Shown one piece after another: positions 17,774-63,664 of a DNA stretch of 64,000 bases (positions are counted from its first letter, which is position 1; each line of letters begins with the position of its first letter). The stretch lies in NCBI RefSeq assembly GCF_021631985.1, contig NZ_CP070225.1, forward strand, positions 2,666,001 through 2,730,000, written 5' to 3'. Both the position numbers and the translations under genes were made by a program. The stretch is from Sandaracinus amylolyticus. GTDB lineage: Bacteria > Myxococcota_A > Polyangia > Polyangiales > Sandaracinaceae. Under the pieces are notes generated by a model. It did not search any database and was not told where the DNA came from. It worked only from the letters and a program-made list of their open reading frames with translations.

Positions 17774-17801
17774 GGAACTCGTGACCGGCACGCTCCTCTA
17801 A
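17774..17801 (+). promoter_or_regulatory. Candidate ECF-sigma-type promoter
   Basis: GGAACT (17774-17779) and TCTAA (17797-17801) are 17 bases apart, close to the GGAACTT / TCTAA form of sigma-E promoters. The site overlaps a direct repeat of CCGGCACGCT (17785-17794 and 17807-17816, 22 bp apart, two helical turns). It lies 73 bp before the start at 17875. Confidence 0.35.
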
Positions 17802-24874: not shown

Positions 24875-26950
24875 GTGAGTCAGGCGAACGGTAAGGTCTC
24901 GATGACGTTCCAGATCTTCCACGGGGAAGAGCTGGTCCGCACGGAGACGCTGACCCAGGACATCATCAAGGTCGGCAAGCTGCCTTCGAGCCACCTGCGC
25001 ATCGAGGACGAGAACGTCTCTCGAATGCACGCGGTGATCGAGGTCACCGGCCCGGACGAGATCTACATCATCGATCTCGGTTCGGCCGCGGGCACGATCG
25101 TCAACGGCAAGAAGGTCAACAAGACGAAGCTGCAGAACGGCGACGAGGTCGTCCTCGGCGGCACGCGCGTGGTCGTCGAGATCGGTGCCGCGGGCGCCAG
25201 CGACGACGACGACATCACGATGATGGCAGCGCGCAGCGAGGTCGTGGCCGCGAAGGCCGCGCCCGAGCCCGCGAAGCCGCCTCCGCCCCCCGCACCGCCG
25301 GTCGCGAATCCGTTCGCGGCGCCTGCGGCTGCGGCGGCGAATCCGTTCGCTGCGGGCGGGGCCCTGCCGAATCCGTTCGCGGCGCCCGCGGCGGTGACGC
25401 CTGCGCCGGCGCACGGCGGCGGTGGTCACGGCCACGGTCACGACGAGGACGAGGACTCGGAGAACATCCGCTACGGCATCGCCGCGAGCGGTCCTCCGGT
25501 GAACCCCGCGGACGTCGAGAGCGCTGCGACGGCGGTCGAGGTCACGCTCATGTGGGGCGACCTCAGCATCCTCCACGTCGCGCACCTCTCGCCGCCGCGC
25601 ACGTTCTACATCGGTGAGAAGTCGGCGACGGCCGCGCCCGACTACCTCGTCGGCAGCGAGGTGCTGGGCGCCGATCGCATGCCGCTCGTGGTCGAGGTCG
25701 GCGGCAACAGCGCCGTCGTCGTCCCGCAGGGCGCCGAGGGCGCGGTCACGGTCGGCGAGCAGTCGATGTCGTGGGACGACCTCAAGGCGTCCGGCAAGCT
25801 GCAGCCGTGCTCCGAGATGGCGGGCGCGATGCAGTACGTCCTGCCTCAGGGCGCGCTCGCGAGCGTGAAGTACAAGGGCTTCACCTGGATGGTGAAGCCG
25901 ACGTCGGCCGGCAAGCGCGTCGGAGTCGGCGGCGGCCCGAGCGTCAACTGGGGCTATCACACCTGGACGGCAGTCTCGCTCGCGGTCCACGCGGCGTTCC
26001 TGCTGATGTTCTACTTCCTCCCGCCGCGCCCGGCGTCGCTCTCGCTGGATCTGCTCAACGCGGACTCGCGTCTCGTGCAGTACCTGATGGAGCCGCCGGA
26101 GACGCAGGAAGAGGAGACGCCCGACTGGCTCGAGCAGCAGGAGCAGCAGGACGACGCCGAGGGCGGCACCGGCAAGCGTCACAAGGGTGACGAGGGCCAG
26201 ATGGGCGACGAGAGCGCCCAGAAGTCGAAGAACCGCTACGGCATCGAGGGCCCCGCGGACAACCCGGACCCGCACATGGCGCGTCAGGAGGCCCGTGAGC
26301 AGGCGGCGACGGCCGGCGCGATCGGCGTCCTCCAGGCGATGACCGGCGCGTGGAACTCGCCGACGTCGCCGTACGGCCAGGACACTGCGCTCGGCAGCGA
26401 TCCCATGAGCGCGCTCGGCGCCCTGATGGGTGATCAGATCGGCTCGAACTTCGGCTTCGGCGGCCTCGGTCTCCGCGGCACCGGTCGCGGCGGCGGCGGC
26501 ACCGGCGAAGGCACGATCGGTCTCGGCAACCTCGGCACGATCGGCCACGGCGCGGGCACCGGCACGGGCTCCGGCTACGGCAGCGGCGCGGGTGGGTTCA
26601 GCGGTCGTCGCTCGACGGTTCCGCGTATCCGCACCGGTGACGCGGACGTCCGCGGCTCGCTCTCGCGCGAGGTCATCCGCCGCGTCATCCGCCGTCACAT
26701 CAACGAGGTCCGGTTCTGCTACGAGCAGGAGCTCGCGAACCGTCCCGATCTCGCGGGCCGCATCACGGTCAGCTTCATCATCTCGGCGACCGGCGCGGTG
26801 CAGACCGCGACGGTGTCGAACACCACGCTGAGCAACGCGCGCGTCGAAGGCTGCGTCACGCAGGCAGTTCGTCGCTGGACCTTCCCGGCGCCCGACGGCG
26901 GCGGCGTGGTCGGCGTCAACTACCCGTTCGTGCTCGACAGCTCGGGCTGA
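24875..26950 (+). CDS. FHA / AgmX-PglI / TonB-like trans-envelope protein (GltG-like)
   Basis: A 691-residue protein. An N-terminal FHA domain (about 25-105: VGKLPSSHLRI, SRMHAVIE, GTIVNGKKV) binds phosphothreonine in the cytoplasm. Three NPFAA repeats start at residues 145, 156 and 166, followed by a His/Asp-rich patch (about 178-195). An AgmX-type middle domain lies at about 205-350, then one TM at about 363-382. A Gln/Glu region and a Gly-rich region follow. The periplasmic TonB-like C-domain (about 590-691) carries HINEVRFCYEQEL and ends near NYPFVL. This order matches Myxococcus GltG (no zinc ribbon or GYF domain, unlike GltJ/AgmX). The start is the GTG at 24875 with AGGAGG at 24864-24869. 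Confidence 0.85.
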   Translation: MSQANGKVSMTFQIFHGEELVRTETLTQDIIKVGKLPSSHLRIEDENVSRMHAVIEVTGPDEIYIIDLGSAAGTIVNGKKVNKTKLQNGDEVVLGGTRVVVEIGAAGASDDDDITMMAARSEVVAAKAAPEPAKPPPPPAPPVANPFAAPAAAAANPFAAGGALPNPFAAPAAVTPAPAHGGGGHGHGHDEDEDSENIRYGIAASGPPVNPADVESAATAVEVTLMWGDLSILHVAHLSPPRTFYIGEKSATAAPDYLVGSEVLGADRMPLVVEVGGNSAVVVPQGAEGAVTVGEQSMSWDDLKASGKLQPCSEMAGAMQYVLPQGALASVKYKGFTWMVKPTSAGKRVGVGGGPSVNWGYHTWTAVSLAVHAAFLLMFYFLPPRPASLSLDLLNADSRLVQYLMEPPETQEEETPDWLEQQEQQDDAEGGTGKRHKGDEGQMGDESAQKSKNRYGIEGPADNPDPHMARQEAREQAATAGAIGVLQAMTGAWNSPTSPYGQDTALGSDPMSALGALMGDQIGSNFGFGGLGLRGTGRGGGGTGEGTIGLGNLGTIGHGAGTGTGSGYGSGAGGFSGRRSTVPRIRTGDADVRGSLSREVIRRVIRRHINEVRFCYEQELANRPDLAGRITVSFIISATGAVQTATVSNTTLSNARVEGCVTQAVRRWTFPAPDGGGVVGVNYPFVLDSSG

Positions 26951-56978: not shown

Positions 56979-57380
56979 TCAGGCGTCGTCGTCGCCGCGG
57001 CGCCGACGGCCCACGAGCTTGTCGTAGATCACGGGGCCGAGGCTCTCGGTCATCAGGCGCTCGACGTGGTTCGCGATGCGCTCGCGCTCCGCCTCGCTCT
57101 CCCAGAGGAAGCCGATGCCCATGCCCGCTTCCTGATCGGACGTCGCCTGCGCGACCTCGACGATCCACTGGACGCGCCCGCGCAGCGCGAGCGGCTCGCC
57201 CAGCCCCGGCACGTTCAGCTTGAACACGAAGTCCGTGCCGATCGCGAGCGGCTTGTCGGTGCGGATGAAAGTCCCACCACGGCTGATGTTCTTCGTGTAG
57301 TCCGCGAAGAACGCGTTCAGTCGCTTGTATTCGACGCTCAGCTCGATCGCCATGCGAGGGGACTGCCGCCGTTCGGCCAC
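56979..57380 (-). CDS. PilZ-domain protein
   Basis: A 133-residue PilZ domain protein, a likely cyclic-di-GMP receptor. Seen: the RxxxR motif (ERRQSPRMAIEL) near the N-terminus and the second motif as NISRGGTFIRTDKPLAIGTD, followed by LRGRVQWIV. This is the compact variant common in myxobacteria. It ends with a basic/acidic tail. The GTG at 57380 is chosen since a start at the internal ATG would remove the first Arg motif. Divergent from the sigma factor gene. Confidence 0.87.
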   Translation of the reverse strand: MAERRQSPRMAIELSVEYKRLNAFFADYTKNISRGGTFIRTDKPLAIGTDFVFKLNVPGLGEPLALRGRVQWIVEVAQATSDQEAGMGIGFLWESEAERERIANHVERLMTESLGPVIYDKLVGRRRRGDDDA

Positions 57381-57491
57381 GGGCCCGATGATGCATCGAG
57401 TTGCAGGCCGCGCGCCATGTTTCGCACATCGGCCCGCCCAAGGTCGACCGCGGGGCGCGTGGTCGGAGCGTGCAGAACGATGCGTGCTCGG

Positions 57492-57520
57492 TTGTCCCTG
57501 CCCCGTGGCTGGCCTACGAT
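57492..57520 (+). promoter_or_regulatory. Candidate promoter of the sigma factor operon
   Basis: TTGTCC (57492-57497), 17 bases, TACGAT (57515-57520), about 90 bp before the ATG at 57612, in the 231-bp divergent gap beside the PilZ gene. Nothing else stands out in this gap. Confidence 0.4.
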
Positions 57521-57611
57521 GCGTCGCGTTGCCGGAAGGCACGGCGCGGAGGGGTCGCCGTCCCGACCGCGCCCGCGTCCGAGACGCGGCGTCGGCAGCG
57601 ACACCCGCCCG

Positions 57612-58247
57612 ATGGTCGAGCGCCCGATGGTCGAGCCCAGTGAGTCCGAGCTGATCGAGCGCGCGAAGCGCGGCGAGAAGGCGGCGTTCGGGCGCCTGCT
57701 GCGGATGCACCAGCGGCGCGTGTACGCGTGCGCGATCCACATGCTCGGGGATCGCGGTGAGGCCGAGGACGCGGTGCAGGAGACCTTCCTGCGCGCGTGG
57801 CGCGCGATCGATCGCTTCGATGGTCGCGCCGAGCTCTCGACCTGGCTCTATCGCATCTGCATCAACGTCTCGCTGAACACCCTGCGGCGCCGCAAGCGGG
57901 TGGACGCGGCGGACATCTCGGATCCGCGGGTGCCCGAGCCGGCGGCCGATCCGACGCAGGGCCAGAACGATCCGCGTCATTCGGCGCAGGCGGCGCAGCT
58001 CTACGGGCGGCTCGCGAAGGCGCTCGACGATCTCTCGCCCTCGCTGCGCGCGACGGTGGTGCTCGTGCTGCTCGAGGGTGTGCCGCAGAAGGAAGCGAGC
58101 GAAGTGCTCGGGTGCTCGGAAGGGACGATCGCGTGGCGCGTGCACGAGGCGCGCAGGCGCTTGCGGCTCGTGCTCGGTGATCATCTCGAGGAGAGCAGCG
58201 AGGAAGGCCCCGCGGTGAGCGCGGCAGCGACGGGGAGGCGCGCATGA
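57612..58247 (+). CDS. ECF-type RNA polymerase sigma factor
   Basis: A 211-residue ECF sigma factor. Region 2: LLRMHQRRVYACAIHMLGDR, EDAVQETFLRAWRAID, and FDGRAELSTWLYRICIN. Region 4: LPS-like SPSLRATVVLVLLEG, then the helix-turn-helix KEASEVLGCSEGTIAWRVHE. The ATG at 57612 or one at 57627 starts it. Its stop overlaps the ATG of the next gene (ATGA), the usual sigma/anti-sigma coupling. Confidence 0.93.
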   Translation: MVERPMVEPSESELIERAKRGEKAAFGRLLRMHQRRVYACAIHMLGDRGEAEDAVQETFLRAWRAIDRFDGRAELSTWLYRICINVSLNTLRRRKRVDAADISDPRVPEPAADPTQGQNDPRHSAQAAQLYGRLAKALDDLSPSLRATVVLVLLEGVPQKEASEVLGCSEGTIAWRVHEARRRLRLVLGDHLEESSEEGPAVSAAATGRRA

Positions 58248-59635
58248 GAGAGGATCTCCAGCGTCGCATCTCCGCCGCGCTCGACGCGCCCGATGGGATC
58301 GACGGTGACCCCGGGCTGCGCGAGGTGCTCGAGGGCGATCCCCAGGCCGCGGCGTACGCGCACGACGTGGCGCGCCTCGGTCGTCTGATGCGCGAGTGGC
58401 CGCTGCCCGAGCCGGACGGCGCAGCGTTCGAGGCGCTCGCAGCGCGCATCGAGCAGCGGCTCGACGAGACGCTCCCGCGCGGCGGCGACCTCACCGCGGC
58501 CCCGCAGTTCGACGACGACGACGATCTGCGCGACGCGACGGCGGGCTTGCTCGGGCCGGTGATCACGAGCGGCGAGTTCCAGGTCGAAGAGCTCGAGAGC
58601 ATCCCGCCCGGCGTGATCGCGCCCAAGTCGAACGCCGCGCCGCCTCCGCCGCCGAGCGCGCGTTCGCTGCCGGCGCCCGTGGCGCGCGAGATCCCGAAGC
58701 TCGCGCCGGCCTCCGATCAGGCGGTGGATCGGCTCTCGTTCCCGTCGATCCCGCCCGCGCCGGGCGCCTCGTCGCTCCAGCAGGCGCCGGTGGTCCCGCT
58801 CCGCAAGCGCGAGCGCGGTCGTTACGGGTGGCTCGCGGGCCTCGCGGCGGCGGCCGCGGTCGGGCTCGGCGTCTTCACGAGCACGCAGATCTACCAGAAC
58901 GCGCCCAGCGCGGAGAGCGCGGCAGCGCCCGCACAGACCGTCGCGCCCGGCGCGACGGCGGCGATTCCGGCCGAAGGAGCGGCGGTGTACGAGATGGCCG
59001 CGGTCGAGGAGCCCGCGCCCGCTCCGACCACGCCGATGCCGGCCGCGCCCATGCAGCGCGCCGAGCCCATGGCGGCACCGCGGGAGGCCCCGCCGCCTCC
59101 GCCCCGTCCGGCAGCCGCATCGACCGAGGCCTACGCGTTCGACGGGATGCTGGGCGGTGCGCTCGCCTCGGGCGGTGCTCCCACCGACGAGAGGCCCGCG
59201 CGTCGGCGCGCTGCTTCGAGCGACGGCGCGTACGCGCGCGGCGCTGCGGGAGGTGGTGGTGCGATCGGCGCCGGAGCGACCACTCGCGCCGACGACGCAG
59301 AGGAGACGCCGCGGAGCGCCCCCCGCCCGACCGTCGCTGCGGCACCGGCGGCCGCGGAGCCCGACGAAGATCTCCCCGCGACGCCCGACCGCGGCGCGGT
59401 GCTCGCAGCGATCCAGGCCGTCGAGCCCGCGGTGCGTGCCTGCGCCGAGGCCGAGCACGGCGTCGCCTCGGTGCGCATCGTCGTCGCCAACACCGGCCGC
59501 GTCACCACCGCGACGGTCGGCGGGCAGTTCGCGGGCACGCCCGTCGGAAGCTGTGTCGCGCGCGCCGTGCGCACCGCTCGCTTCCCGCGCTTCGCGAGCG
59601 AGCGGTTCGAGGTCACGTACCCCTTCCAGCTCTGA
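58244..59635 (+). CDS. Anti-sigma-like membrane protein with TonB/AgmX-like C-terminus
   Basis: A 463-residue protein. The N-terminal cytoplasmic segment (about 1-90: LREVLEGDPQAAAYAHDVAR) sits where an anti-sigma domain would be but lacks the HxxxCxxC zinc motif. A Pro-rich linker leads to a TM at about 195-213 (YGWLAGLAAAAAVGLGVF). A long Ala/Pro-rich outer region follows. The C-terminal domain (about 385-463: VEPAVRACAEAEHGVASVRI, then SCVARAVRTARFPRF and VTYPFQL) resembles the TonB-like end of the FHA protein at 24875. Coupled to the sigma gene, it probably senses the envelope; this is inference. Confidence 0.75.
   Translation: MREDLQRRISAALDAPDGIDGDPGLREVLEGDPQAAAYAHDVARLGRLMREWPLPEPDGAAFEALAARIEQRLDETLPRGGDLTAAPQFDDDDDLRDATAGLLGPVITSGEFQVEELESIPPGVIAPKSNAAPPPPPSARSLPAPVAREIPKLAPASDQAVDRLSFPSIPPAPGASSLQQAPVVPLRKRERGRYGWLAGLAAAAAVGLGVFTSTQIYQNAPSAESAAAPAQTVAPGATAAIPAEGAAVYEMAAVEEPAPAPTTPMPAAPMQRAEPMAAPREAPPPPPRPAAASTEAYAFDGMLGGALASGGAPTDERPARRRAASSDGAYARGAAGGGGAIGAGATTRADDAEETPRSAPRPTVAAAPAAAEPDEDLPATPDRGAVLAAIQAVEPAVRACAEAEHGVASVRIVVANTGRVTTATVGGQFAGTPVGSCVARAVRTARFPRFASERFEVTYPFQL

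Positions 59636-59668: not shown

Positions 59669-63664
<3,996 letters not shown>

Follow-up and report, generated by a model that had tools for sequence, protein, structure and literature searches.

Anti-sigma factors are classed according to the sensory domains that they carry. In class-I domains, three helices lie on region sigma-4 of the sigma factor and a fourth on sigma-2; members without a zinc motif are known (e.g. RseA and RskA), and the C-terminal domains of the class have been surveyed by Pfam in a text that does not mention TonB (PMC7406223). In FecR-type anti-sigma factors, the C-terminal domain reads an outer-membrane partner and the sigma factor is released through proteolysis by Prc (S41 type) and RseP (PMC9249621, PMC11637429), an outer-membrane transducer protein shielding the anti-sigma factor from this proteolysis (PMC11637429). 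GltG and GltJ, from the gliding machinery of Myxococcus, are motor-linked TolA/TonB-like proteins (PMC5349195). A literature search, leaving figures and most subscription papers outside its scope, revealed no description of a class-I anti-sigma factor with a TonB/TolA-type tail. Here, we present a gene pair from the 64-kb window (the whole stretch of DNA analysed) that combines these two elements and appears to be an undescribed route by which the condition of the cell envelope is signalled to transcription.

The pair consists of an ECF sigma factor, P0003, whose assignment is firm given its Pfam regions 2 and 4, and of P0001, which would be its cognate membrane anti-sigma factor. The two genes are coupled as the sequence-only reading had described, the start codon of P0001 lying over the stop codon of P0003 in an ATGA at positions 58244-58247. 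The pair and the predicted parts of P0001 are as follows.

57612..58247, + strand: ECF sigma factor gene (P0003, 211 aa; Pfam Sigma70_r2 1.1e-21, Sigma70_r4_2 6.4e-10)
58244..59635, + strand: putative anti-sigma gene (P0001, 463 aa), overlapping the stop of the sigma gene
58244..58468, + strand: predicted class-I anti-sigma domain, residues 1-75, without zinc motif (AlphaFold2, profile match, RseA_N bridge)
58487..58522, + strand: conserved motif D-x-[T/L]-x-x-P-x-F, residues 82-93, after helix 4 (ortholog alignment)
58826..58882, + strand: predicted single transmembrane helix, residues 195-213, without SxxxH (hydropathy, charge pattern, motif check)
58883..59365, + strand: Pro/Ala/Gly/Ser-rich periplasmic tether of ~161 residues (composition)
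59390..59632, + strand: predicted AgmX/PglI (TonB/TolA-CTD-like) C-terminal domain, residues 383-463 (NF033768, AlphaFold2, PDB matches)
59441-59443 and 59552-59554, + strand: invariant Cys400 and Cys437

A Pfam scan of P0001 returned no domain match anywhere in the protein, and its N-terminus was therefore characterized through its family, using a profile (A1) built from ten orthologs. This profile matched 52 genomes of the order, and in all of the 51 fetched loci with a match the corresponding gene immediately followed a same-strand ECF gene, which it usually overlapped by 4 bases. An ECF gene was also found upstream in 19 of 19 loci of a further set, which shares a few genes with the first one and comprises weak matches outside the order, other classes of the phylum included. 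Among these weak relatives, one (L163) matched Pfam RseA_N at 3.9e-9 and others matched zf-HC2. Profile-profile comparison of the N-domain family with ten such anti-sigma domains, including RseA_N and zf-HC2 members recognized by Pfam, gave a probability of 97% (E 5.7e-11 over 81 columns). The AlphaFold2 model predicts helices at residues 3-14, 23-31, 33-50 and 59-73 (mean pLDDT 79; block-mean pLDDT >80), a four-helix arrangement that fits the class-I layout given in PMC7406223. No neighbour of this model was detected in the PDB by Foldseek, which says nothing on the fold; likewise, the N-domain profile gave only weak and unrelated matches among PDB sequences, and the whole P0001 sequence gave none.

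By these comparisons, namely the A1 loci, the RseA_N and zf-HC2 relatives and the profile-profile match, the P0001 N-terminus belongs to the class-I anti-sigma family and would presumably bind the sigma factor; the objection raised in advance, that it does not, did not materialize. The earlier remark that anti-sigma factors usually carry zinc-finger or RskA-type parts calls for caution. P0001 has neither: the Hx3Cx2C zinc motif is absent, residues 1-399 being devoid of any cysteine, and no RskA C-terminal domain was matched by Pfam. The share of class-I domains without the zinc motif is reported to be about 44% (PMC7406223), making its absence in P0001 ordinary. Furthermore, in a mirror-tree analysis that serves as a rough internal control (24 related pairs, short domains), sigma distances correlated with those of the N-domain at r 0.82 and with those of the tail at r 0.53, with partial correlations of 0.74 and 0.02, respectively, suggesting that sigma divergence tracks the N-domain and not the tail. 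This co-divergence is an indirect sign that P0001 would bind and inhibit its cognate sigma factor. We are highly confident that P0001 is an anti-sigma factor, and it very probably keeps the ECF sigma factor P0003 inactive.

At the other end of the protein, the tail matched the NCBIfam model NF033768 (E 2.8e-9), as did the C-terminal domain of the protein encoded at 24875 in the window (E 7.1e-32). Judged by its scores against the 40-bit cut-off (41.9 when the tail is scored alone and 41.2 when the genome is searched, but 37 when the entire protein is scored), membership of the tail in this family is borderline, and profile comparison upholds it. The resemblance between the two C-terminal domains, noticed by eye in the sequence-only reading, was recovered by BLASTP (31% identity over 97 columns, 32 bits, both cysteines aligned) and persisted where it might have vanished, in profile-profile comparison (97% probability, E 1e-10, vs 0.3% for an unrelated profile pair). 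The pattern noted at that time included one conserved cysteine; its conservation was confirmed and its number corrected to two, C400 and C437 being invariant in 26 aligned orthologs and the sole cysteines of the protein in 26 of 31. According to phmmer, the closest tails are those of AgmX-like zinc-ribbon/GYF proteins encoded elsewhere in the genome, not that of the GltG-like protein at 24875.

Structure prediction points in the same direction. The tail was modelled as alpha-beta-beta-alpha-beta (AlphaFold2, pLDDT 86), and a Foldseek search against the PDB returned TonB, TolA, FusB and HasB C-terminal domains at ranks 1 to 23 (best E 6.9e-3). VIA-align also retrieved TonB/TolA-type C-terminal domains with Z up to 7.9 (rmsd 2.9, 80 residues), its top rows covering 80-83 residues at rmsd 2.4-3.1; taken by themselves, these Z values are moderate, but they form a consistent list, with a single DUF5043 chain (Z 6.2) among the rows. 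Searched against PDB sequences, the tail profile gave weak TolA matches (E ~0.6). A TonB/TolA-like fold is thus predicted for the P0001 tail with high confidence, and both halves of the original description, an anti-sigma-like protein and an AgmX/TonB-type outer domain, were supported by profile comparisons.

Between these two ends, the single transmembrane segment previously announced was predicted at residues 195-213; its positive side is N-terminal, and for 26 of 31 orthologs the charge pattern predicts an N-in orientation. It is followed by a tether composed of 16% Pro and 60% Pro, Ala, Gly and Ser, which ranges from 102 to 258 residues in 31 orthologs. On the cytoplasmic side, D82 and P87 of the D-x-[T/L]-x-x-P-x-F motif are invariant in 24 orthologs, and Polyangiaceae orthologs display a related LxAPx motif after helix 4; the D-x-[T/L]-x-x-P-x-F motif is perhaps an additional contact with the sigma factor.

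The earlier proposal that P0001 couples transcription to a Glt-like machine was not sustained. The GltG-like FHA protein of the window (24875-26950) carries an S-x3-H type motif (SLAVH) in its transmembrane helix and is probably motor-coupled, and this type of motif was also identified in five other tail proteins of the genome. The TonB/GltG-type SxxxH motif is absent from the P0001 transmembrane helix, and a histidine occurs in or near this helix in only 2 of 43 orthologs. In addition, P0001 has no FHA, zinc-ribbon or GYF domain according to Pfam, and scored 21 bits with the GltJ model, vs a cut-off of 450. GltG-family matches were obtained in all 177 genomes of the order that were searched, including some lacking the module, and several lineages, for instance the f4/g9 genomes, yielded no sigma ortholog. 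A specific Glt link is therefore unsupported and specific coupling was rejected as a candidate, GltG-like genes being universal in the order and the P0001 helix lacking the motor motif; an indirect link of the module to Glt is possible.

Because a scan of genome contigs with P0001 found no relative, the sigma alignment was used in its place. Sigma orthologs scoring at least 256 bits were detected in 98 of 183 genomes of the order. The two-cysteine tail was present in 31/31 complete anti-sigma factors of the first set, in 19/19 non-truncated Polyangiaceae loci of the second and in several loci from other families of the class. In the sigma tree (FastTree, branch supports left aside), the tail-bearing loci fill a clade that includes Sorangium cellulosum, Polyangium fumosum and Labilithrix, the apparent exceptions being three contig ends (L064, L071, L072), a probable frame error in L153, which has almost identical relatives that do carry the tail, and one sister lineage (L193-L200, L283, L285, L286, L297) devoid of an adjacent anti-sigma gene. 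Essentially every complete locus of the orthologous sigma clade thus appears to end in the tail and, as judged from these loci, the sigma/anti-sigma pair has been kept together as a module of two genes throughout a large group of myxobacteria.

The surroundings of this module are more variable. Two conserved neighbours and one promoter-like element were identified around the pair.

56979..57353, - strand: divergent PilZ-domain gene, conserved neighbour (Pfam PilZ 5.9e-13)
57491..57523, + strand: promoter-like element conserved ahead of the sigma gene, with TTGTCC at 57492-57497 and TACGAT at 57515-57520, 17 bp apart
59669..63664, + strand: Ser/Thr kinase gene with AAA and TPR-like parts (Pkinase 1.4e-35, AAA_16 2.2e-24)

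A PilZ gene is the divergent neighbour of the sigma gene in Sandaracinaceae and in a number of related families, in many of which the pair is followed by a large Ser/Thr kinase; orthologs of the kinase located directly downstream in the window occupy the same place in the Sandaracinaceae-type loci (f1 and f4). Other divergent neighbours include NadA in other families, an HlyD/ABC/MacB exporter in many Polyangiaceae and, in just one sub-lineage formed by Sorangium- and Polyangium-type loci (L148, L153, L154, L161, L185, L259, L263, L264, L269, L275), an S41/PDZ (Prc/Ctp-like) protease. Neighbours vary by family, and the core is therefore the sigma/anti-sigma pair. The S41 neighbour is suggestive, since Prc and RseP process FecR-type anti-sigma factors (PMC9249621, PMC11637429), and it represents a candidate processing protease; S41 and M50 proteases are also encoded in the Sandaracinus genome itself. 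No outer-membrane partner gene linked to the module was seen at the loci, nor any TonB-dependent receptor gene next to P0001.

The promoter-like element, of the form nTTGTC...N18...TAnnnT, precedes the sigma gene in 52 loci and is rare elsewhere in these loci, its sole site in the window being the one before the sigma gene. Across 28 non-identical sites, some of which were found with a matrix built from the first seven, neither TTGT nor TAnnnT varies. The element is conserved over the whole class and its spacer contains a partly conserved GTGTTCG. It could be either a housekeeping promoter or an autoregulatory one, and an exact-pattern regulon search of two genomes of the genus yielded no second shared site with a clear meaning. 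The candidate promoter at 17774, formerly considered as a target of this sigma factor, does not match the conserved element (PWM score of -1.2 vs 19.0 for the sigma-gene promoter) and was set aside; this mismatch is not decisive, as the conserved element may be read by another sigma factor.

Considering these elements together, we propose that P0001 is a motorless docking sensor spanning the periplasm, and put the probability of the whole chain, from anti-sigma identity to docking sensor, as well as that of the sensor itself, at about 0.6. The N-domain would sequester the sigma factor as in class-I complexes, its helices 1-3 contacting sigma-4 and its helix 4 contacting sigma-2. The tail would act as a passive, motorless input domain that reaches across the periplasm and docks, probably through beta-strand addition in the manner of TonB and TolA, onto a partner in the outer membrane or the periplasm. 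A change in docking would then expose P0001 to regulated proteolysis, by a Prc/Ctp-type S41 protease and subsequently by an RseP-type M50 protease, and free the sigma factor. Such a scheme would work like FecR/PupR cell-surface signalling, with an AgmX-type tail in place of the STN-like end. The Prc/RseP-type release is the more tentative part of the proposal, for which we would not claim even odds.

Other readings of the same protein were weighed against this docking sensor. P0001 might not be an anti-sigma factor at all and represent instead a structural AgmX-like envelope protein that shares an operon with an ECF gene, as the tail is common to motility proteins and many tail proteins of the genome are encoded away from ECF genes. 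Such an accidental association hardly accounts for same-strand ECF adjacency in 51/51 loci and an upstream ECF gene in 19/19, nor for the homology to RseA_N/zf-HC2-type domains, the predicted four-helix fold and the co-divergence of the N-domain with sigma, leaving this reading highly improbable. The tail could also belong to a motor-driven mechanosensor, in which an AglRQS/ExbBD/TolQR-type motor would pull on the transmembrane helix and the load on the tail would be reported to sigma. This idea, close to that of the sequence-only reading, draws on the TonB/TolA-CTD fold and on the motor-linked GltG and GltJ, which have the same type of tail (PMC5349195), but conflicts with a transmembrane helix lacking the S-x3-H motif seen in the GltG-like and five other tail proteins, with the scarcity of histidines in or near this helix (2/43 orthologs) and with the occurrence of GltG-like genes in 177/177 genomes of the order, including those of f4/g9, in which the search recovered no sigma ortholog; we consider it quite unlikely.

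The two remaining alternatives keep the anti-sigma function and change its input. In one of them, Cys400 and Cys437 would form a periplasmic thiol switch; upon reduction, the tail would unfold and trigger the release of sigma. The invariance of both residues and their status as sole cysteines in 26/31 orthologs speak for such a redox sensor, but almost every AgmX-type tail encoded in the genome has this pair, motility and lipoprotein contexts included, which suggests a disulfide with a structural role in the domain family and makes the switch improbable. In the other, the signal would come from the cytoplasm, with the downstream kinase or a c-di-GMP/PilZ signal acting on the linker or on the DxTxxPxF motif and the tail being reduced to an anchor. 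The kinase and PilZ genes are indeed conserved neighbours in the f1 and f4 loci, and the motif contains a Thr in most f1 orthologs. Most Polyangiaceae loci nevertheless retain the pair without these neighbours, and phosphorylation of Thr84 by the downstream kinase is weakened by the replacement of this residue in many orthologs, some of them accompanied by the kinase, while D82 and P87 are kept. Cytoplasmic input is accordingly a long shot, and the motorless docking sensor is the reading that we favour.

This docking sensor might not be an isolated case. The genome contains 36 NF033768 matches, and the cytoplasmic partners of these tails include FHA, zinc-ribbon/GYF and Ser/Thr kinase domains. 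Among the tail proteins inspected with their flanks, only P0001 and L304 follow an ECF gene. The latter (L304 2681-5010, own genome, C1:3423500-3430000) belongs to a second ECF/anti-sigma pair that associates zf-HC2, a transmembrane helix, FecR and the tail, an independent combination in favour of reading this tail as the part through which anti-sigma factors receive their input. Two Ser/Thr kinases with a transmembrane helix and an AgmX-type tail (L318 1007-2824, - strand; L323 2315-4291, + strand) are possibly receptors whose input end is TonB-like. At L065 (316-2285), another ECF gene precedes a tail protein in which no anti-sigma domain was detected; this may be a third combination. Whether the myxobacteria have recruited a motorless TonB/TolA fold as a general periplasmic input domain on cytoplasmic signalling modules is a wager that we would place just short of even. 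If true, P0001, L304 and the L318 and L323 kinases would constitute a family of envelope-reading receptors beside the motor-coupled GltG type, of which the present sigma/anti-sigma pair would be an ancient and conserved member.

Our results suggest that one ECF lineage, conserved throughout a large myxobacterial group, relies on a docking domain of the TonB/TolA type. As Pfam scans miss this tail, such proteins would read as "no domain" in surveys. The pair would also offer a testable route from the state of the outer membrane to transcription that does not involve a TonB-dependent receptor.

Compared with the class-I anti-sigma factors (RseA, RsiW, ChrR, RskA), P0001 shares the predicted four-helix N-domain, a gene located 3' of the ECF gene with a stop/start overlap and the usual single transmembrane helix, but differs by its long Pro/Ala tether and its TonB/TolA-CTD-like tail in the periplasm. 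The organization into a cytoplasmic anti-sigma domain, one transmembrane helix and a periplasmic C-terminal domain is that of FecR, PupR and FoxR; by the features tested, however, P0001 is not a FecR-type member, as Pfam detects no FecR domain and its end is TonB/TolA-CTD-like, not STN-like. With TonB and TolA, it has in common the predicted C-terminal fold and a long periplasmic tether, while its large cytoplasmic domain, the absence of a motor-binding motif and the lack of a known motor partner set it apart. Finally, P0001 resembles GltG (PglI) and GltJ (AgmX) of Myxococcus gliding in its single transmembrane helix and NF033768/TonB-CTD type C-terminal domain, and departs from them by its cytoplasmic anti-sigma domain, the absence of SxxxH and a presence independent of Glt. 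P0001 and the motor-coupled GltG thus provide a natural comparison within one cell, the same type of tail occurring without and with the motor motif.
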